A DNA stretch of 21,941 nt, from positions 1 to 21,941 of IMG/VR virus record IMGVR_UViG_3300028129_000072, one strand, 5' to 3'. This stretch comes from a virus. Every line of letters starts with the position of its first letter. Within the stretch, counting starts at the first letter, position 1. Under the pieces are notes generated by a model that saw only the letters and a program-made list of their open reading frames with translations, did no database searches and was not told the origin of the DNA. Made by a program: the position numbers and the translations under genes. Positions 11,761 through 21,941 of this stretch are shown one piece after another.

Positions 11761-14700
11761 TCATTCTGTAGCATCTTTTAGGTACTTCTTGTAGGACTTA
11801 CCCCACTCTACGAAAGTACGATACAGGATAGTGCGCTTCACACCTTTATCGTCTTCACTTATGTCAGGATCATCATCCACCATCTGTAGAGCATCATCAA
11901 AGCTAACACCCTGTGTATACCCTACAGCAGCGTGACGTTGTGCCCATGCTTCCTCTGCACGTTCCATTTCTCTAGAGCCAAGCGCTTGATACTCACTTTG
12001 TATATATGCTTGATAGTCACCCTTGAAACGATCAGCATTAGCAAAGCTTTCTAAGTCATCACGCGCTTCACTACGAGCCAGTGCAATCTGTGTCTTCAGG
12101 AACCCTTCTAGTTTATTACGCTTATCTGTTGCGCTGGGAGATTCAGTATAAATGGAAGTCTGTATAAACTCTTCTGCTTCACGAGCTAGGTTACCCTGTA
12201 GCTTCTGTTGCGTGAACAATTCTAGTGTAGCATTCTTTTCACGGTAAGGAGAGTACAACTTAAAGGGGTCCACCTGTAGACGTGTCATCTCTTTTTGTAG
12301 AGCATTCTTAGGGGGTCTTCCAAGGAAACCAGTAAGCTGTTTCTCAATAGGGTTATACAAACGTACAGGGCCATCACCAAAGATGTCAAACTTGATAGCG
12401 TCATACCCTTCGTCTACAATGCCTTGCTCACGTGCATATTCAATCTGATACTGCATACGAGTAGAAGACTCAAAGAAGTTTACCAGTGGTAGATCAACAT
12501 CAGGGAAGTCAGGTAGCTGACGTGTCACACGCTGATAGAGATTCATAGGAACGTTAATACCATACAAGTCTAACATGCTCAGTGTAGGATCACGTGTCTC
12601 AGCAATGTAAGAGCTACGTGGATCAAACTGACCATAGAAGTCCTTCAATGCAGCAGCAGGGTATGTGAATGCAGACATCTGATCACCCAATGCTTTAAAG
12701 ATAGGCTCCATTGTACCTGCATCAATAGCACGTTTTACATCATCATACAGCCCTACACCAGGACGAAACTCTGTACCTGTGAATATCTTAGCCATGTCAT
12801 CCATGACTTCACCGTCTTTCTTGACAGGTAAGCCTTCCATTTTACGTGCTGCATAATCTGATACATAAGCAAAAGCAGCAGCAGGGCCAAGAGCAGCTTC
12901 AGCATTACGTATCTGTCCTGTCATAGGATCACGTGCTTCATACCACTCCATATCATCGTGCACTTTATTACTGTACACACCGTAGTACGCACCAAAAGAA
13001 AGCCCTGCACCTGTCATAGCTTTACCCATGTCCTCTGCGCGGAAGCCGTGGCGAATGGCAGTTATACCAGAGTAGTCACTAAAGAACTTAGCTTGTGATG
13101 CCAAGTAGCGTGGAAAGGGTACAGCAATAGTTAGGAAGTTATTATGTGCAAAGTTGATAAGCTCTTCAGTCTTTTTACTTATAGCACTAGCTTCTTTGCC
13201 ACCAAACTTACGCTGGAATGTAAAGGCTAATGATTCTTTCAATGCTTTATCTAGGATGTCATCAGGTAGTTGTTCTATCGTGCCCTTCTTAAGCATATCC
13301 ATCACAGATGTGCCCAGCGCATCATTACCTAATTGCTTAAGCTCACGGTCAATCGTACCTGCAATAACAGCACGTTTAACTACGAAGTCAGACATAGTGT
13401 TGAGCGTGTTAGCTGCAGCACCTGCTTTAGCCAATAAAGTATCGCCTACTACCTTAGACTCTGATATGGCTGCATCGTGGAATATACGAGAGAGTTTATC
13501 TGGTGCTTCTTGACGCAGTGTGGTTACAAGAGCATCCGCTACATACTGATCGTTTGTGAGATACTTTAAGTTATCCAGTGTACCTTTAAACGTAGCGACA
13601 GAGCCTTTAGCATTACCTGATAATAACTTAACTGCAGAAGTGTTAAGTTGATCAAGCATATCAATACCTGTCATAGCTACAGAGAAGATATTGTTTCGCA
13701 TGGTAGTAGCTGGCTGTGAAGTCATAAACATACGTCTAGCATCTTCTAAGCCTTTAGCCTGTCGATACACACGGCTAGACAGACTACGATTAACTTCTTC
13801 GATTACTTTTACGTCTTCTGCTTTTACAGTAGACATACCTGCATCATACAAAGTATCTATCTCTTTACTATACTTCTCTAGCTGTGCTTTACTGATCATC
13901 TTCTTGCTACGAGATACGATCTGACTTTGTGCAGCAAGCTTACGAGCAGCCTCACTGATCTCAGCAGCGTAAGCCACAGAGATTTGACGTGGCGTTAGAC
14001 CATAGTCATCAGCAATAGCTTTAACTAAGTCTGAACCACCTGCAATATCTTTAGCTAAGAACTCTGTAATGCGTTGCCCCTTCTCAGGTTTAACACCTAG
14101 CCCTTTAGCTAGTTCATAAGACGCAGCAGTAATCCTCTGTATAAGATCAGCATTAAAGCCCCCCACAATGCCATCAGGAAGTTCATCACTGAAGATGTTC
14201 TCCCGTACTACATTGCCTTCCTTAACAAGATTGGGATCAATAGCACGAAGGGTGTTGTCTGTGATATACTTCATCAGACGTTTACCCTCTTTAGTCTTAG
14301 CAGCATCTTCACTTGTATTTTTAGCTTTTACTCTAGCTGCTACAAGACGTTCTGCGGAGGCCCCTCTCCCTTCCTCTATAACATCTACTAATTTATTAGC
14401 ACCTCGTTTCTGTAGCATAGCAGGAGCGCCATAGGCTACAGTACCAATACCAGCACCTAATAAACCTGAAGCTATAACATTACCTGTGTTCACTTCATAT
14501 TCTTCATCTATCTCAGGTGCAGCTTTCTCTCTTAACTTCTCACTACCAAACGCAGATGAAGCAGCAATAGAGCCATCAATAGCCCCTGACACAAGAGAAC
14601 GTTTTATAATCTGCTTTCCTGTTTCACGTAGGGCCGCTAGAGATGCAACCTTAGTTGTTTGTATTGCTGCAGTACCTGTACCTGCAGAGCCAACACCAGC

Positions 14701-15102
14701 CAGTACAGATGCGTAAGTACTAGGTGCAGTAAGTGTAGCAGCTAGATAGTCTCCTACTTTCTCTATACCACGGTCAAACAATCCTTCACCTTTAGAGTTA
14801 TCAAAAGCAAACATCAAACGTCCGAATGCTTCTTTCTCGTTCTGTGGTGTTTTAGTGTCTGACATGTAGTAGAAGTCTTTAGACATACTAACTTCGTTCA
14901 TTGTCTGGTAGCGGAAGTGTTCTAGAACCTGAGACACTACATCATCAGCAGACAACTTCTTAATTTCATCATCTGTGTAATTACCTCGTTTACTCTTTAA
15001 GAAGGTAATAGCATCACTAAGAAATGCACCATTAGACTTTAGTTCAGATAGCTTTCTATCTTGCATATACTCAGGAGAGTAGTACGTATACTTATCTGAC
15101 AT
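11761..15102 (-). CDS. Large internal virion / DNA-ejection protein (gp16-like by position)
   Basis: A 1113-residue protein, the last gene of the leftward block and the largest in the window. Its start has GGAG seven bases upstream, within the end of the previous gene. Sequence alone does not give a family. Residues about 115-245 hold several Ala/Gly-rich hydrophobic segments (YLAATLTAPSTYASVLAGVG; NVIASGLLGAGIGTVAYGA), separated by long charged helices. A second membrane-like region follows PFPRYLASQAKF and GAGLSFGAYYGVY in the C-terminal half. Size, terminal position and membrane-active look match T7 gp16, which enters the cell envelope to pull DNA in. Unlike gp16, there is no transglycosylase motif; the peptidoglycan-cutting domain is in another gene of this block. 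Virion location and ejection role are inference. Confidence 0.85.
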   Translation of the reverse strand: MSDKYTYYSPEYMQDRKLSELKSNGAFLSDAITFLKSKRGNYTDDEIKKLSADDVVSQVLEHFRYQTMNEVSMSKDFYYMSDTKTPQNEKEAFGRLMFAFDNSKGEGLFDRGIEKVGDYLAATLTAPSTYASVLAGVGSAGTGTAAIQTTKVASLAALRETGKQIIKRSLVSGAIDGSIAASSAFGSEKLREKAAPEIDEEYEVNTGNVIASGLLGAGIGTVAYGAPAMLQKRGANKLVDVIEEGRGASAERLVAARVKAKNTSEDAAKTKEGKRLMKYITDNTLRAIDPNLVKEGNVVRENIFSDELPDGIVGGFNADLIQRITAASYELAKGLGVKPEKGQRITEFLAKDIAGGSDLVKAIADDYGLTPRQISVAYAAEISEAARKLAAQSQIVSRSKKMISKAQLEKYSKEIDTLYDAGMSTVKAEDVKVIEEVNRSLSSRVYRQAKGLEDARRMFMTSQPATTMRNNIFSVAMTGIDMLDQLNTSAVKLLSGNAKGSVATFKGTLDNLKYLTNDQYVADALVTTLRQEAPDKLSRIFHDAAISESKVVGDTLLAKAGAAANTLNTMSDFVVKRAVIAGTIDRELKQLGNDALGTSVMDMLKKGTIEQLPDDILDKALKESLAFTFQRKFGGKEASAISKKTEELINFAHNNFLTIAVPFPRYLASQAKFFSDYSGITAIRHGFRAEDMGKAMTGAGLSFGAYYGVYSNKVHDDMEWYEARDPMTGQIRNAEAALGPAAAFAYVSDYAARKMEGLPVKKDGEVMDDMAKIFTGTEFRPGVGLYDDVKRAIDAGTMEPIFKALGDQMSAFTYPAAALKDFYGQFDPRSSYIAETRDPTLSMLDLYGINVPMNLYQRVTRQLPDFPDVDLPLVNFFESSTRMQYQIEYAREQGIVDEGYDAIKFDIFGDGPVRLYNPIEKQLTGFLGRPPKNALQKEMTRLQVDPFKLYSPYREKNATLELFTQQKLQGNLAREAEEFIQTSIYTESPSATDKRNKLEGFLKTQIALARSEARDDLESFANADRFKGDYQAYIQSEYQALGSREMERAEEAWAQRHAAVGYTQGVSFDDALQMVDDDPDISEDDKGVKRTILYRTFVEWGKSYKKYLKDATE

Positions 15103-15106
15103 TTAT

Positions 15107-17149
15107 TTACTCCGCTGGGATTTGCTTAAGGATCATCTGAATAAGCTGTGGATCTTCTTCAATACCCTCTTGCTTTAAGAAGTCCTTAATAACCTCTGCA
15201 TCAACAAACTCTGTACTAATGTCTGGAATGTTTTCATTTAGATCATTAAACAGTCGTAAAGCTAGTACCGCTTTGTTAATATCATCTTCTGACACGTCTG
15301 GCTGTGGTAAGACAGGAGCATTATCTATTTCTGGGGCACTTACTACCTTATCTTCTGGTATCGTAGGGCTTCTGTCAAAAGGACTACCTTGCAAACCCTT
15401 CTGGAAACGCTTGAACTTAAACTGAGCACCTAACTCACCTTGAGGTAATCCTTTGTCTTTACGTTCCTTGCGGGACATATCCTGCCACTCATCATAAGTC
15501 ACACCATTAAACTCAAACTCACCTGCAGGTTCAGTGGTAATTTCTACACCTGCATCAAAGTCTGGGCTTGTAATAGAGAAACTCTCAGCACGTCTGATAA
15601 CCTCATCTTTAACTGCTGGCTCAAGAGTCAAACCAAAGTCTTCACCCATAGCTTCGTCTAGATCATCCTTAAAGTAGCCAAGCTCTTCTTCGTTTGTAGG
15701 TGCAATTATATTAGCTTTCTCTAATAGAATATCAATTACTTTGTCTGCCTTCTCTTCAACAGACTCTGTACCTTCTTGTACTTCATTTATTTGCTCTACA
15801 GCAGACTTGATGACTAACGCAGGAGCCGCTTCTAATGTAGGTGCTAGAGCTTGTTTAATAAGCAGGTCAGCTACTTCAAGCTGTGTGTCTGGAGAGGCGT
15901 TATTGATCTCTTTAAGCACGTCTTGTCGCTTATCTTCAGGTAGTTCTTGAATCGCTGTTTGTACTTCAAAGTTACTCTTTAGTACTTCAGGTACTGCATC
16001 CTCTACTGGAGTCTCTACCTTTGGTACAACAGTTGATTGTAGATCATCCTTTTCTTCTACAACAAGTTCTTCTTCTGGTTTTTCACCTGCAATAATAATG
16101 TCAATCTCTGCATCCGTAAGCTCACGGCTTTCTGCAATAGCACCTTTGATAACATCAATAGCGAAGTTGCTTTTAATGCTTGAATTAAGAGATGTTGCTT
16201 CGTCTTGTGAATTTACTGAACGAGATAGCTGATCAATAATCTGGAAGCGCCCTACACGCCCTGCGAACAGTTCATTACCCCGTCCTGCCATGATAATCTG
16301 ACGCTCTAGGCTGGACATAGAAGAAGCTGTATCATTGACAGCTTTCTTAATTTCACCTGCATTTGTGTTATCCTCTGTGTAATCAGCAAACTGTACACTA
16401 TCGTTAAGATCAAAGTTAGTAATACCTAGTGACATAAGCTTAGCTGCGTAGTTCTGTGTACGTGTTATGTCTGCAGCAGTATAATCATCTTTACTTAAGC
16501 TATACTCTGAAGTACGAGAAACATCTGAGAAGATATCTTGTCTACCCCCACCCAAAGATTGATACGCAATCAAATCATTTACGTTAACACCCATATATTT
16601 CATGTTCTTAAGCTGTTGCTCTGCTGACATGCGAGGATCAAGCATAAACAAGTCTTTAGCTGCTTGAGCAAAGGACCGTTGCTTAGCACCCTCACTTTTA
16701 GGGTCTGTCTCTTTCTGTAGTGACGCAGTTTGCAAACCAAGGACTTGCCTAATAGCTGCATCTGCTGTCATACCTTCAGGTAACTTAAAGTCATCAGGCA
16801 TATCTACAAGAGACAGGATCTCTGACTTATCCAGTGAACCTAGTTGATTAGCATCACGATATTGTTTTGTATCATATACATCTTTATACAAGCTAGTCAC
16901 ATCTGTAGCATCAACAAGAGCTACAAACTCGTCATCTGTCAAATCAAAGTCACGCTGCATAGCAGTTTGTATTTCTTTAATTTGTTTAAACTGCCCTTGT
17001 GTTTTCATGTAAGAAGGTGCAATACGTTTAGCTGCATCAAAACCGTTATCTAATAAGTCTTCCATACGATCTTGTCGGCGCTCAATACCTGCTGTAAACG
17101 TATCAGTAAAGCCTTTTAAGGCATGTGCCCAGAACATCTTTGCACTCAT
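15107..17149 (-). CDS. Acidic internal virion protein candidate (gp15-like by position)
   Basis: A 680-residue, mostly helical and strongly acidic protein. The start has GGAG seven bases upstream and lies one base from the preceding stop. The N-terminal third holds alternating helices (RRQDRMEDLLDNGFDAAKR). The middle is low-complexity and rich in Glu, Val and Pro (EKPEEELVVEEKDDLQS), probably flexible. A compact segment, FEFNGVTYDEWQDMSRKER, lies near the C-terminal quarter, and the tail (IKDFLKQEGIEEDPQLIQMI) is helical. There are no enzyme motifs or membrane spans. Order and size (179, 680 and 1113 residues in turn) parallel T7 gp14, gp15 and gp16, so an ejection-tube component is the best guess. 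Family unrecognised. Confidence 0.82.
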   Translation of the reverse strand: MSAKMFWAHALKGFTDTFTAGIERRQDRMEDLLDNGFDAAKRIAPSYMKTQGQFKQIKEIQTAMQRDFDLTDDEFVALVDATDVTSLYKDVYDTKQYRDANQLGSLDKSEILSLVDMPDDFKLPEGMTADAAIRQVLGLQTASLQKETDPKSEGAKQRSFAQAAKDLFMLDPRMSAEQQLKNMKYMGVNVNDLIAYQSLGGGRQDIFSDVSRTSEYSLSKDDYTAADITRTQNYAAKLMSLGITNFDLNDSVQFADYTEDNTNAGEIKKAVNDTASSMSSLERQIIMAGRGNELFAGRVGRFQIIDQLSRSVNSQDEATSLNSSIKSNFAIDVIKGAIAESRELTDAEIDIIIAGEKPEEELVVEEKDDLQSTVVPKVETPVEDAVPEVLKSNFEVQTAIQELPEDKRQDVLKEINNASPDTQLEVADLLIKQALAPTLEAAPALVIKSAVEQINEVQEGTESVEEKADKVIDILLEKANIIAPTNEEELGYFKDDLDEAMGEDFGLTLEPAVKDEVIRRAESFSITSPDFDAGVEITTEPAGEFEFNGVTYDEWQDMSRKERKDKGLPQGELGAQFKFKRFQKGLQGSPFDRSPTIPEDKVVSAPEIDNAPVLPQPDVSEDDINKAVLALRLFNDLNENIPDISTEFVDAEVIKDFLKQEGIEEDPQLIQMILKQIPAE

Positions 17150-17150
17150 G

Positions 17151-17690
17151 TTATTGCTCCTTCGCCATTAAGCCTTTAGGTTCTTCTTCAGTAGTTACAG
17201 CTTCTTGCACTGCACCTTCTGTTGAGATAGACGCCTCGACTTTTTCCATAATCTTTTCACCTTCGTCTAGCGGCCCTTTGACCTTATCTAGCTTAGCTTT
17301 AATGCGACTCTTTAATTTAAGTGCTTCTTCTTCTTTTTCATCTCTGTAGTCATCAAACGTAATCTTATAATCCTCAATACCAATAGCTTCAGCGAGAGAG
17401 TTAATATGTGCAGTAAGTAAAGGGCGTAGTAGTATTTTTACATCTACAGTGTGCATACCTCTTAAAACACCTGTACTAAGCATAGCACCTGAGATACTAT
17501 CCAAAGGTGCTCCTGCATCAATTAGATCAATTACATCGTTAAGAACTTCATCATCAGCGAGCCGTTCTATGTACATCTCAAGTGCATCTAGTGGATCAGA
17601 GAACTTAGAAGGTTTCTCCCACGGTGCGTTGCTTGGTTCTGCTGTAAGAGACTGACCTGGAATAGGTCCATCAAAAGGAGAAAGTGCCAT
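17151..17690 (-). CDS. Virion protein candidate beginning with a PIPGQSLT segment (gp14 position)
   Basis: A 179-residue protein. The N-terminus (SPFDGPIPGQSLTAEPSNAP, then WEKP) is extended and proline-rich, a type I recall from structural proteins of marine myoviruses and podoviruses. Residues about 30-110 are regular helices (DALEMYIERLADDEVLNDVI; VKILLRPLLTAHINSLAEAI). The rest is a charged coiled-coil-like stretch with a disordered acidic tail. There is no membrane span, unlike T7 gp14, so the resemblance to gp14 is in gene order and size only. The ribosome site is weak (AAGG ten bases upstream). Function unknown. Confidence 0.8.
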   Translation of the reverse strand: MALSPFDGPIPGQSLTAEPSNAPWEKPSKFSDPLDALEMYIERLADDEVLNDVIDLIDAGAPLDSISGAMLSTGVLRGMHTVDVKILLRPLLTAHINSLAEAIGIEDYKITFDDYRDEKEEEALKLKSRIKAKLDKVKGPLDEGEKIMEKVEASISTEGAVQEAVTTEEEPKGLMAKEQ

Positions 17691-17702: not shown

Positions 17703-18146
17703 TTATTTAGTGAAACCTGCACCAAAGTAGAGTCCTACAATGGCTGATACGATATGTGTGTCTAGTGGAGTTATTACAAAGCCTTTAGCCATCTTCCACT
17801 GTATTGATTCTGCTGGACCAAAGAGCCAAGATAACGGACCACCAGTAGCTTCAGTGTATCCTACATATACGCTTACATCAGGATACCATACAGCGACTAG
17901 CTTTGGCAATACTATAATAGAGAATACAGCAGATAAAGCTATGAGCCTACGTGTCCAAGCAAAGTGTTTATCATTCTTACCTGCGTCACGTGCATCAGCT
18001 ACAGCACTTCTGTTAAACTCTGCACGTTGCATCAGCATCTCTTGCTGAGCTTGTTTAGCTTTTATGCTCTGACCCCATATAGACATAACACCACCTAACA
18101 CAGTAGAGAAAAGCATTGTTATTAATTCTAGGGGTAAGCCGAACAT
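17703..18146 (-). CDS. Three-span membrane protein, possible holin
   Basis: A 147-residue protein with hydrophobic segments at about 3-24 (GLPLELITMLFSTVLGGVMS), 67-88 (LIALSAVFSIIVLPKLVAVW) and 129-146 (DTHIVSAIVGLYFGAGF). A charged, Gln-rich linker lies between the first two. The layout resembles the 3TM holin families of phages and gene-transfer agents, which open the inner membrane at lysis. The neighbour upstream encodes a lysozyme domain, which fits a holin-lysin pair. Both genes sit among ejection-protein genes, so it may instead be a virion membrane component. Its start overlaps the lysozyme gene stop by one base (TAATG on the minus strand). Confidence 0.78.
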   Translation of the reverse strand: MFGLPLELITMLFSTVLGGVMSIWGQSIKAKQAQQEMLMQRAEFNRSAVADARDAGKNDKHFAWTRRLIALSAVFSIIVLPKLVAVWYPDVSVYVGYTEATGGPLSWLFGPAESIQWKMAKGFVITPLDTHIVSAIVGLYFGAGFTK

Positions 18147-19543
18147 TAAAGTGGAACCTCTAAATCACCTAACTTTTCGTCAGTGTCAGGTTTAGTCCAT
18201 GTTTTTAGTTTTGCACCATTAGCATCTTTAATTGTGTACAATGTACCTGTACGCTTTTTATCTGTCATAACTGCAGTTGTAGTAATTGAAGCTGCTTTCT
18301 CATCCTCGTTAGCTACAAGGTTGTATGTTTGTAGTCTTCTTTTTAATACCCCTCTAGGGTAGTCTGTTCCAGATTTAAAGTTTGTTGTAAACCCTATTAA
18401 GGAATCCTTACTTTTAGTACCTTCTTTACTAGCCTCTTGAAGCATTGTCTTAACAGAAGGCCAATCAGCAGAACCTATACCTGCATTCCATGCTATGTCA
18501 TAGGCCGCTTGCTTGGCATTATCAGTAAGATCACCAAAACCTTCCCCGTATTTAGTCGCTGTTTGCTTACCAAACTCTGCATAAACAGCCTTTGCGAAGT
18601 CTTTATCATTATCATAATCAGCCCGACTTACACCAAACTTTGTTGCCTTTGAGTAGTCTACACCTGATAGATCGGCTGTAGTTAAGCCGTGTTTTCCAGT
18701 AGGATTAAAAGTAGTACCATCTGACTTTTTAACGCTATTTTTGTCAGGCACAATACCAAACGGCAATGTTACAAAACCTCTACCATCTAAATGAATATCT
18801 GTACCTTCTGCTTCCGTTAAGCTGGCAAAACCAGAGGATAAAGGTACTGTAGCATCAACAGTCTCAGAAACACCTGCTTTTATTATAGTAGCGAAACTAG
18901 TAGCCCCTTCTGCAGGACTCATTATCCCTTTCCCACCTGAAGGTGCTGCACCTCCATCAGCGCTGTCGGTACTATCACTAACATCAGAATCAACAACAGT
19001 CTCAAGTACATCTTGTATAGCCTTATCTAGCATCTCATTACTTCTAGTATCTACACTAGGTGCATCAACAGGCGCTGGGCTGTCTGCCATCTCTGGCTGT
19101 TCACCTCTAGAGACAGGTGTAATCATAGGCTGAAACACCTCTTGAGCTTCCCTAGCGTTATCTCTCATAGTCAGATCAGCACCCTGCATATCAGCACCAC
19201 TGAACATAGCATCCCTAGCCTGATCTGATAGTTGCCCTGTAGGAGCCTTAGACCTTGTAATACCTAGAATAGAACGAATCTTAGCTGCCTCTTCAGCAGA
19301 ATCACGTGCGTACTGCTCCATAGCTTCAGCACGTAGTTTAGCGGCCCGTTCTCTAGACTTGGTTAACATATAATCAAAGAACCCTGCAGCAACAACATCA
19401 CTGTCAGATACAGGCTCTGCAGGTTTAGCTAATATGCCAGGTTGCTTTTGATCTTCTTCATTGTTAAAACCGTAAGTAAGACGTAGTGTGTCATACAAAT
19501 CATTAGGTCTTATTGTAGATAGTTTTGTCTTAATGAATGCCAT
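18146..19543 (-). CDS. Virion protein with C-terminal lysozyme-like (GH24-type) domain
   Basis: A 465-residue protein. Residues 1-230 are helical then disordered (Ser/Asp/Ala-rich, with SDVSDSTDSADGGAAPSGG) and carry no recognised domain. Residues about 240-410 look like a T4-type lysozyme or pesticin-type muramidase. A probable triad is E244 (or E246), D253 and T259 in LTEAEGTDIHLDGRGFVT; from E244 the spacings are 9 and 6, the same as T4 lysozyme E11, D20 and T26. The C-terminal lobe reads AAYDIAWNAGIG and VLKRRLQTYNLV, as in that family. A long non-catalytic N-terminal half and the neighbouring virion genes favour a particle-borne wall-cutting enzyme over a plain endolysin, though both are possible. 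AGGA precedes the start. Confidence 0.82.
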   Translation of the reverse strand: MAFIKTKLSTIRPNDLYDTLRLTYGFNNEEDQKQPGILAKPAEPVSDSDVVAAGFFDYMLTKSRERAAKLRAEAMEQYARDSAEEAAKIRSILGITRSKAPTGQLSDQARDAMFSGADMQGADLTMRDNAREAQEVFQPMITPVSRGEQPEMADSPAPVDAPSVDTRSNEMLDKAIQDVLETVVDSDVSDSTDSADGGAAPSGGKGIMSPAEGATSFATIIKAGVSETVDATVPLSSGFASLTEAEGTDIHLDGRGFVTLPFGIVPDKNSVKKSDGTTFNPTGKHGLTTADLSGVDYSKATKFGVSRADYDNDKDFAKAVYAEFGKQTATKYGEGFGDLTDNAKQAAYDIAWNAGIGSADWPSVKTMLQEASKEGTKSKDSLIGFTTNFKSGTDYPRGVLKRRLQTYNLVANEDEKAASITTTAVMTDKKRTGTLYTIKDANGAKLKTWTKPDTDEKLGDLEVPL

Positions 19544-19551
19544 GTCTTATC

Positions 19552-21941
19552 CTATACCCCAATAGCTTTCTTTAAAAGTAATGCTGATGCTGTAGCAATC
19601 ACTGTACCTACTGCAGAACCTGAAGCTGCACTTGCTGCTGCGTCATTACTTATACCTTCTAAAGTAAGAGCGTGTTCTTGTTGGTCTTCACGGTCTGCAA
19701 TTCTAACAGCGTAATCTAATGCATCACGCTCTTGTTGTAGCATGTTGTTATACGTAGTCTCAGTGAGGTTATTAGCTACTACCGCTGCATCACGGTTAGC
19801 TGCGTTCTGTGCAGCGTTATCCATAGTGGTGATAGCTTGCTCCCACTGGGCATTAGCTTGTTCAACTACTAAAGCATTATTAGCGTTAAACTGGTCACGA
19901 GCATTCTGTTGTGCGCTGTTAAACTGTGAGATAGCATTAGCTTCACCAGCGTTAAACCGTTCCATAGCATTCCGTTGATCTACATTAGATTGCTGAATCT
20001 GTGTCTGCAAGTTAGAGAAGAACATATCTACTTGATCAGAACTAGATGCATTAAACTGGCGTCTAGCATTCTCTGCAGCAGTATCAGACATAAACACACT
20101 AGCTAAACTCTGTGCCTTAAACATAGCTACTTGCTGCTGATTAGTCATGCTAGACATGTCAAAGTCTAGGAAAGCCTTAGCCTGTTGTATGTTAGCTTGC
20201 TGTCTGTTACTCAAGTTAGTCAGATCAAGCTGTGACATAGCTGCAGCATCTGCCATAATCTTAGCGTTCTTAGCAGTAAGGTTAGTAATGTCTACAGTCT
20301 GAGCCATACGTGCATTCTCTAGTGCAACCTGTTGCTCAGCAGTAAAGTTAATCTGTGCTACATCAGCGACACGTGCAGCGTTCTGTACACGTGATTGGAA
20401 CTCTTGGTCAAACTCCATGCCAAGGAACTTAGAGCGTTGCTCAGCAGCAAACATAGCGGCTTGCTGTCTGTTAGACAGGTTCTGTGCTTCAAAGCTAGCA
20501 CGTGTCTGTGCATCCATCTGTGCGATAGGTAGTGCAGACTCCATAGCAGCCTGTACAATGGCTTGTCCTGCCATGCTTGATGCACCTAGCCCACGTGCAG
20601 CTAACGTAGCTGTAGCAGCCCTCATAGCTCCTGCAGCCCATGCTGGTGTCTCCCCACCCTCAAACTGCTCTAGTAGCCCTGTAAGTTGTCCCTGTACTGT
20701 AGCTTCACTAGATGGTACACCTGTAGCTGCAGTAAAGTTAGTCTCTGCTCTAGCTCGTTCAAAGTCTACAGCACTATCAACACGCATCTCTGGTGTTACT
20801 TCTAGTGGTGTCACTTCTTCTACACGCTGTGCACGATCAATCTGCTCTGCTGTAAGACCTAGCTGTGCTAGTTGTGAAGGGTCCATAGTAGCTGCTTCAG
20901 CTAAGGCTTCTGCGCTGGGCTTACCTGTCACAGCAGTAAGCTTAGACATTACATTAGCTACTTCAGCCGCTGCCTCTTTAGCTGTAAAACCAGCAGCTTC
21001 AAACTCTTCAGCTAGAGGTACATCATCAGCAATAGCTGCCTCTGTTAGTGTAGCAGTATCAGCCTCTGCAGCAGCCTGACCTGTACCTTCAGCTATCTTA
21101 CCTGCTGCACGTTGTTCGTCACTTACAGTAACTACATCAGCTTTAGTAACCATAGACGTAGGGTCTTCTAGTATGTCTGCCCTCATCTCTGTAGTGCTAG
21201 GCATACCTACACGTTCTAGGTTAGTTTGTGCTTGTGATAGATTAGCTCTAGCGTTAGTTACTTTAATCTGCTGTTCATCAATCAAGCCTTGAATAGTGTC
21301 ACGCTGTGGGTCATCTGCAGCCATATTAGCAAGCTGTGTAGTATAGCTCTGTAATAGGTTCTGCTCTTTAGATAGACCACTCTGTGCAGTATCTAAGTTA
21401 GCACGTGTTTGTTCAGGAGATACAGTAGCTTGCTGACCGTAGTAGCTTTTATACGCCTCAAGCTGTTTGTTATACGTGTCTTGGGCTGTTTTATTAGGTT
21501 GTACAACTTCCGTAGTGTAAGCACCCGCAGCCTTAACTACTTGTGCAGCTTCTTCAGGACTCTTAGTTGTAATAGTTTTACCATCAGCAAAAGTTACAAT
21601 ATTACCTTCTGCAGCAGCACCACTTAAGTCTGATCCTTCAGTCACAAGACCCGCTAATGCCGTTTCATTATAGTCAGGTAAGTAATATACCCCACCTGTA
21701 CTCTGTTTAAAGAAGTCTAAAGCGTTTACTTCTTTTAGTTCAGGTGCAGTAGGTAGACCTTTAGAGGGGTCATACTCAGGCTCTACAGGTAATTCAGGAC
21801 CAGGTAATGCAGGACCACCTGTAAAGTCACCTGGCTGTTTAATAGGGTATGGAACAGGCTCAGGTGTGTCTATACCCATATCAAACCCACCAGTAGTGTT
21901 AGGAGTAGTACCCTGTACAGCACCACCGCCAAAATCAAACC
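19552..21941 (-). CDS. Large Ala/Gln-rich virion protein with 11-residue repeats (5' partial)
   Basis: At least 775 residues from the first in-frame Met (21,879). The frame stays open upstream to the window edge (FDFGGGAVQGTTPNTTGGFD), so the real start is outside. The N-terminus is Gly/Pro-rich and probably disordered. Residues about 150-350 are coiled-coil-like (LSKEQNLLQSYTTQL), then Ala-rich. Residues 443-739 are 27 consecutive 11-residue units such as QFNSAQQNARD and QFNANNALVVE. The C-terminus is Ala/Gly-rich and hydrophobic (SAVGTVIATASALLLKKAIG), a possible membrane-inserting segment. There are no catalytic motifs and no cysteines. Position at the head of the ejection-protein genes and membrane-like features suggest a virion core or tail component; family unrecognised. 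Confidence 0.82.
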   Translation of the reverse strand, partial: FDFGGGAVQGTTPNTTGGFDMGIDTPEPVPYPIKQPGDFTGGPALPGPELPVEPEYDPSKGLPTAPELKEVNALDFFKQSTGGVYYLPDYNETALAGLVTEGSDLSGAAAEGNIVTFADGKTITTKSPEEAAQVVKAAGAYTTEVVQPNKTAQDTYNKQLEAYKSYYGQQATVSPEQTRANLDTAQSGLSKEQNLLQSYTTQLANMAADDPQRDTIQGLIDEQQIKVTNARANLSQAQTNLERVGMPSTTEMRADILEDPTSMVTKADVVTVSDEQRAAGKIAEGTGQAAAEADTATLTEAAIADDVPLAEEFEAAGFTAKEAAAEVANVMSKLTAVTGKPSAEALAEAATMDPSQLAQLGLTAEQIDRAQRVEEVTPLEVTPEMRVDSAVDFERARAETNFTAATGVPSSEATVQGQLTGLLEQFEGGETPAWAAGAMRAATATLAARGLGASSMAGQAIVQAAMESALPIAQMDAQTRASFEAQNLSNRQQAAMFAAEQRSKFLGMEFDQEFQSRVQNAARVADVAQINFTAEQQVALENARMAQTVDITNLTAKNAKIMADAAAMSQLDLTNLSNRQQANIQQAKAFLDFDMSSMTNQQQVAMFKAQSLASVFMSDTAAENARRQFNASSSDQVDMFFSNLQTQIQQSNVDQRNAMERFNAGEANAISQFNSAQQNARDQFNANNALVVEQANAQWEQAITTMDNAAQNAANRDAAVVANNLTETTYNNMLQQERDALDYAVRIADREDQQEHALTLEGISNDAAASAASGSAVGTVIATASALLLKKAIGV
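19663..20553 (-). repeat. 33-base (11-residue) tandem protein-coding repeats, 27 units
   Basis: Read on the minus strand, residues 443-739 divide without a break into 11-residue units: for example LTNLSNRQQAN, IQQAKAFLDFD, MSSMTNQQQVA, MFKAQSLASVF, then RFNAGEANAIS, QFNSAQQNARD, QFNANNALVVE and QANAQWEQAIT. The first half also shows a 22-residue super-repeat (ITNLTAKNAKI / LTNLSNRQQAN two units apart). DNA identity between units is low, so the periodicity is held at protein level. Confidence 0.75.

Follow-up and report, generated by a model that had tools for sequence, protein, structure and literature searches.

A hendecad-repeat rod whose length varies in whole units in a candidate ejection protein of HMO-2011-type marine podophages

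A protein encoded by an HMO-2011-type marine podophage contains a rod made of about 22 contiguous 11-residue units. Sequence comparison of 128 relatives indicates that the hendecad is the evolutionary unit of rod length, since the length of the rod is quantised and that of the N-terminal part of the same protein is not. We consider it somewhat probable (about 55%) that this protein is an ejection (pilot) protein whose helices are packed side by side across the host envelope. As a helical protein of the pilot or ejection type, it would be a variant of a familiar kind of protein, and what is new is the series of rods differing in length by whole units.

The DNA under study (the window) is a virus record of 21,941 bases that was identified as a fragment of the genome of an HMO-2011-type phage. 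Replication and nucleotide-metabolism genes are located on the plus strand in its left half, structural genes are located on the minus strand in its right half, and the GC skew switches near 11.5-12 kb. The assignment to the HMO-2011-type group is based on the homologous rod detected by tblastn and on the RNR, the DNA polymerase, and the order of the structural genes in a comparison of gene tables with those of HMO-2011 and the CRP phages. Phages of this type rank among the most abundant and most widespread viruses of the ocean (PMC9038755). No description of the route followed by their DNA through the host envelope was found in the literature searched, and no paper describing the rod was found among open-licence papers. 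Relatives of the rod protein occur in 26 phage records as well as at 80 IMG/VR loci. The near-identical copy in locus L005 provides the whole protein (931 aa; ATG at L005:8533), residue n of the window corresponding to residue n+156 of L005; the window numbering begins at an internal Met. Pfam and PHROGs searches with the window protein gave nothing convincing, and a profile search of all PDB chains with the rod returned no relative, phiX174 H included, in agreement with the absence of a described function reported in the initial annotation.

Table 1. Features of the rod protein and of the neighbouring genes in the window
Feature	Position	Strand	Remarks
Rod protein gene	19552..21939	-	795 codons present; 5' end cut by the right edge of the window
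Pre-rod module, P-x-W-A ... LPIA	20527..20646	-	Residues 412-451; conserved
Hendecad rod	19849..20577	-	Residues 435-677; ~22 units, 243 residues
Post-rod module	19642..19848	-	Residues 678-746; not hendecad
Hydrophobic C-terminal segment, AASGSAVGTVIATASALLL	19573..19629	-	Residues 751-769; AF2 helix, L005 residues 914-929
465-aa protein, peptidoglycan-hydrolase slot	18146..19543	-	Assigned by position and by hydrolase domains in relatives
147-aa holin-like protein	17703..18146	-	Three hydrophobic segments
179-aa acidic partner	17151..17690	-	PIPGQSLT...PWE.PP motif
680-aa fast-evolving protein	15107..17149	-	In the place of a gp15-like ejection protein
1113-aa internal-virion-protein-like gene	11761..15102	-	In the place of a gp16-like protein

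The repeated unit of the rod has the consensus N-[A/L]-[Q/S]-[N/A]-x-[Q/N]-Q-[A/I/M]-x-[L/Q]-F. Comparison of residues 435-677 with themselves (BLOSUM62, lags 5-67) revealed that the six best lags were 22, 44, 66, 33, 11, and 55, with z scores decreasing from 8.9 for lag 22 to 3.7. In a plain-identity comparison, lag 22 reached a z score of 6.6 versus only 1.3 for lag 11; in the N-terminal half of the rod, the double unit of 22 residues is therefore a stronger period than the single hendecad. A profile of the hendecad unit, trained only on nine isolates from outside the HMO-2011 group, matched the window protein in phase between about residues 435 and 677 (z 20.8 versus shuffles). Self-comparison and unit profile thus bear out the uninterrupted and in-register 11-residue period noticed initially, which is encoded on the minus strand. 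The number of units, initially put at 27, is about 22, and the initial span of residues 443 to 739 overruns the rod: residues 676-739 did not match the unit profile (z -0.1), no 11-residue lag series was detected by self-comparison in residues 678-746 or in the other flanking stretch (residues 250-434), and the distance from N676 to the R734 column is 58 residues in all 128 relatives. The earlier estimate of 297 residues and 45 nm was consequently too high, 243 residues corresponding to about 36 nm if the rod is one straight helix (1.5 Å per residue). The hydrophobic segment reported at the end of the rod does exist but lies about 75 residues past it; a comparable C-terminal segment was below the same threshold in most isolates and reached it in only some. 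On the other side of the rod, the pre-rod module (P568 to P607 of L005) consists of 38-39 residues in 125 of the 128 relatives.

The composition of the unit was determined by pooling 26 non-redundant rods (4,976 residues). Asn holds one phase of the hendecad at 66%, Asn and Gln together account for 29% of the residues, Cys is absent, and Trp occurs once. Large hydrophobic residues and Ala are found at four phases, forming on an 11/3 helix one pair at 98 and 164 degrees and another at 262 and 327 degrees, with a more-charged side of the unit at 33-65 degrees and a less-charged side of Gln, Ser, and Asn at 196-229 degrees.

Rod length was measured from a conserved Pro at the rod start to a conserved Asn at the rod end in the 128 relatives, which include isolates from SAR116, roseobacter, SAR11, rhizobium, Vibrio, Aeromonas, and Pseudoalteromonas hosts. 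These anchors are nearly invariant (124/128 and 127/128 relatives). The anchor-to-anchor distance was 137, 148, 159, 170, 181, 214, 225, 280, 313, or 335 residues, which defines ten length classes of 12 to 30 units, and was equal to 5 modulo 11 in 127 of the 128 proteins. The sole exception (L129:6062-8107; distance of 314 residues) has one extra residue near the rod end anchor (NSNLAIEQSNVTW). The N-terminal length of the same 128 proteins, used as a control, occupied all eleven residue classes and was not quantised. Among 59 aligned relatives, a deletion of exactly 11 residues, found in 29% of the sequences, was the sole indel inside the rod, and the N-terminal part of the protein was rich in indels. 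At least 10 changes in rod length, including the one leading to the 314-residue distance, are needed on a tree deduced from the flanking columns, which are few in number; the length classes are independent of the alignment once the anchors are fixed. Changes in the N-terminal zone of the rod are mostly multiples of 22 residues and those in the C-terminal zone multiples of 11. The rod of a phiM6-like phage (L111:5116-7524) comprises 25 units versus 13 in phiM6, and the extra units are encoded by a run of similar 33-base repeats with up to 73% DNA identity. Among phages of the same host, FZCC0040, the rods of CRP-3, CRP-212, and CRP-235 have 14 units versus 19 for that of CRP-207. Rod length therefore does not simply follow from how wide the periplasm of that host is, and envelope width was rejected as the sole determinant of rod length. 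Rods of 12 to 30 units provide a natural ruler series, with which it can be asked whether the length of a conduit or shaft is set by the envelope, the head, or partner proteins.

AF2 modelling based on 66 sequences predicted helices in almost all of the rod and also beyond its end, at L005 residues 591-664, 671-683, 687-731, 736-800, 806-858, 863-909, and 914-929. The rod is therefore modelled as nearly all helical, as initially proposed, with the low confidence of a pLDDT of about 40-70 and in a monomer model that cannot decide the oligomer. At the 11/3 helix angle, the first and second harmonics of the window rod had z scores of 0.1 and 4.5, respectively, corresponding to two opposite hydrophobic faces that are significant when phases are pooled along the whole rod. 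The second harmonic had z scores of 2.2-5.2 in all 13 phages tested, and the first harmonic exceeded a z score of 3 only in CHOED. The trimeric needle coil SU10 gp18, used as a positive control, displayed the reverse pattern, with one clear hydrophobic face. In short windows with a free angle, the two-face signal was not significant in most rods, including that of the window, whereas the needle kept its single face; we therefore treat a barrel geometry as inferred. The phiX174 H tube did not show the two-face pattern in the same test. Together, these analyses make a classic coiled coil unlikely for the window rod, as well as the membrane-lying amphipathic helix envisaged in the initial annotation, which is at odds with the lack of a significant single hydrophobic face. 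Sheet-like or barrel packing is a possible arrangement.

Comparison of the rod-protein model with BFVD gave four significant matches, including its own relatives; one of the matches, W8FPS3, is exactly as long as the CHOED protein. Structure matches of the model in the PDB (Z about 10) were discarded since they mainly involve an N-terminal helical hairpin of common shape. This hairpin belongs to an N-terminal module, mostly predicted with high confidence, at residues 190-380 of the L005 protein (L005:9100-9672), and its shape is like that of periplasmic adaptor proteins and colicins, a common kind of match that may mean nothing.

The rod gene is preceded by a block of tail-fibre genes and is followed, according to the gene tables, by optional hydrolase and small genes and then by genes for proteins of ~180 aa, 365-935 aa, and 817-1893 aa. 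This order is common to the phages of SAR116, roseobacter, SAR11, rhizobium, Vibrio, and Pseudoalteromonas that were read. The gene for the 179-aa protein adjoins the rod gene in 17 of the 17 isolates tested, and searches of the PDB and PHROGs gave no convincing match for its product. As in podophage ejection cassettes, a gene whose large product resembles internal virion proteins is close to the rod gene. One member of the 1113-aa family matches the internal virion protein family phrog_6651, and the model of the 1113-aa protein (mean pLDDT 54.5) matched in BFVD the internal virion proteins of cyanophages S-CBP2 (1.7e-6) and S-CBP3 (4.1e-6). Foldseek searches of the PDB with the same model gave no significant match, and PDB sequence profile searches with the 179-, 680-, and 1113-aa families revealed no significant relative. 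The counterpart of the 1113-aa protein in HTVC103P contains a lysozyme domain. In the hydrolase slot, Pfam did not match the 465-aa protein of the window; among relatives, the catalytic part is Hydrolase_2 for CRP-603 and GH19 for L005. The 465-aa protein and the neighbour of the rod gene in L005 (L005:11337-12752) have their N-terminal ~205 residues in common, and the C-terminal catalytic module is swapped, being GH19 in L005 and lysozyme-like by eye in the window.

The small, middle, and large genes follow the same order as those of the T7 gp14/gp15/gp16 ejectosome, and the counterpart of the large T7-type gene resembles cyanophage internal virion proteins. To our knowledge, T7 has no hendecad rod gene, and no solved structure significantly matched the rod, 680-aa, or 1113-aa profiles. 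The cassette also resembles in its layout gp20-24 of coliphage SU10, which comprise a transglycosylase, two DNA ejection proteins, and two large proteins; all of gp20-24 are found in the virion and are gone after genome release (PMC9509320). Both cassettes contain further ejection-type genes, the transglycosylase being on the SU10 side. The resemblance extends to the Kuravirus-type proteins of phrog_4287 (SU10 gp21 and gp22, and gp20 of phage 7-11), which likewise have a Gln/Asn-rich stretch before a glycine-rich C-terminus and an optional C-terminal Peptidase_S74 domain. Homology was rejected in each case: the hhalign probability was 0.2% between the rod and SU10 gp21, 7-11 gp20 shares only the S74 domain with rod proteins, and the 1113- and 680-aa proteins are not homologous to SU10 gp24 and gp23. 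The window protein did not match the phrog_4287 profile, and its S74-bearing relatives matched it mainly through S74.

Since the rod gene adjoins genes resembling those that thread phage DNA into bacterial cells, its product is probably part of the injection machinery. The rod protein would be packed in the head and would exit with the DNA, its hydrophobic end anchoring in or crossing a membrane. Straight helices lying side by side would then form a bundle or the wall of a barrel carrying or sleeving the DNA through the periplasm. Gain or loss of whole hendecads would alter the reach of this structure while keeping the packing stripes intact, and this would account for the restriction of length changes to whole units. 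Sequence-based arguments for an ejection protein are the whole-unit length rule, the helix prediction, the Asn plus Gln content, the two-face hydrophobics, and the order of the cassette, which places a helical rod among genes resembling a podophage ejection cassette and to that extent favours the ejection element proposed initially. The neighbour resembling internal virion proteins, the HTVC103P lysozyme domain, a LysM domain in CRP-235, and the SU10 layout point in the same direction. The strongest points against it are the lack of homology of the rod to proteins shown to be ejected and the presence of S74 in five relatives. The two-face signal detected only by pooling and not shown by the phiX174 H tube, the C-terminal segment below threshold in most isolates, the low pLDDT of the rod, and the 14 versus 19 units on one host also count against it. 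No virion proteomics of relatives of the rod protein were found.

A close parallel is the DNA pilot protein H of phiX174, which forms a decameric alpha-helical tube of 17 nm and translocates DNA across the cell wall (PMC7354561). Like the rod, H contains 11-residue repeats in a long Asn/Gln-rich helix, and the amide-rich composition of the rod is reminiscent of the lumen of the H tube, which is lined by Asn, Gln, and Arg. The two proteins differ in that H has three hendecads followed by heptads versus about 22 hendecads in the rod, and phiX174 is a single-stranded DNA microvirus versus a double-stranded DNA podophage. The H tube is an oligomer with a lumen, whereas the rod is known from its sequence and a monomer model, and passage of DNA would be deduced by analogy. 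That the rod protein is the double-stranded DNA phage counterpart of the H tube, namely, a self-assembling helical barrel with a length set by a hendecad count of 12 to 30 units, is a tentative and rather doubtful proposal; if true, an H-tube-like barrel would be present in a phage type that is among the commonest in the ocean.

An ejection protein has as its main rival a trimeric needle or fibre of the tail, in which three rods would be joined in a coiled-coil shaft on the exterior of the virion, with rod length setting the reach of the tip. Similar to the rod, the trimeric coiled-coil needles of P22 and SU10 have a long helical shaft and are encoded near ejection genes. The rod gene comes after the tail-fibre block, which we take to be the place of the needle gene in P22-like phages, and the N-termini of the rod proteins vary strongly in length. 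Peptidase_S74, an intramolecular chaperone typical of trimeric fibres, ends the rod proteins of CRP-3, CRP-738, CRP-212, CRP-235, and L107. This domain is absent from the window protein and from most relatives tested, and it is also the C-terminal domain of 7-11 gp20, which belongs to the phrog_4287 DNA ejection family whose SU10 members are ejected, so that S74 is no proof of a fibre. Unlike the P22 and SU10 coils, with the clear hydrophobic face of gp18, the window rod has no single hydrophobic face, and its downstream partners look internal. We therefore regard a needle or fibre as unlikely.

Two other roles are less probable still. A core or scaffold protein would assist the stacking of ejection proteins or DNA packaging and would not itself be a conduit. 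T7-like phages are known to contain internal core stacks, and the constant partner of the rod protein is the 179-aa acidic protein. The envelope is indicated instead by the hydrolase-type neighbours, by the LysM domain of a single relative, and by the hydrophobic C-terminus, making this role quite improbable. The lowest probability is attributed to a sheath or tape running along the tunnel of another ejection protein, the hendecads being in step with a repeat in that protein. T7 gp16 does have a molecular tape on T7 gp15, and length changes by whole units would likewise be consistent with a partner whose repeats match; inspection of the gene tables by eye, however, showed no correspondence between rod length and the sizes of the large proteins encoded nearby, and we consider such a role very unlikely.

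Two observations concern particular relatives of the rod protein. That of CRP-235 (L148:8017-10551) combines an N-terminal LysM domain, a domain known for peptidoglycan binding, with its C-terminal Peptidase_S74. Homologous rods were also found on contigs binned with genomes of Flavobacteriales, Neomarinimicrobiota, and Euryarchaeota (L153-L157), which are likely misbinned phage contigs since some of them recur in two MAGs.
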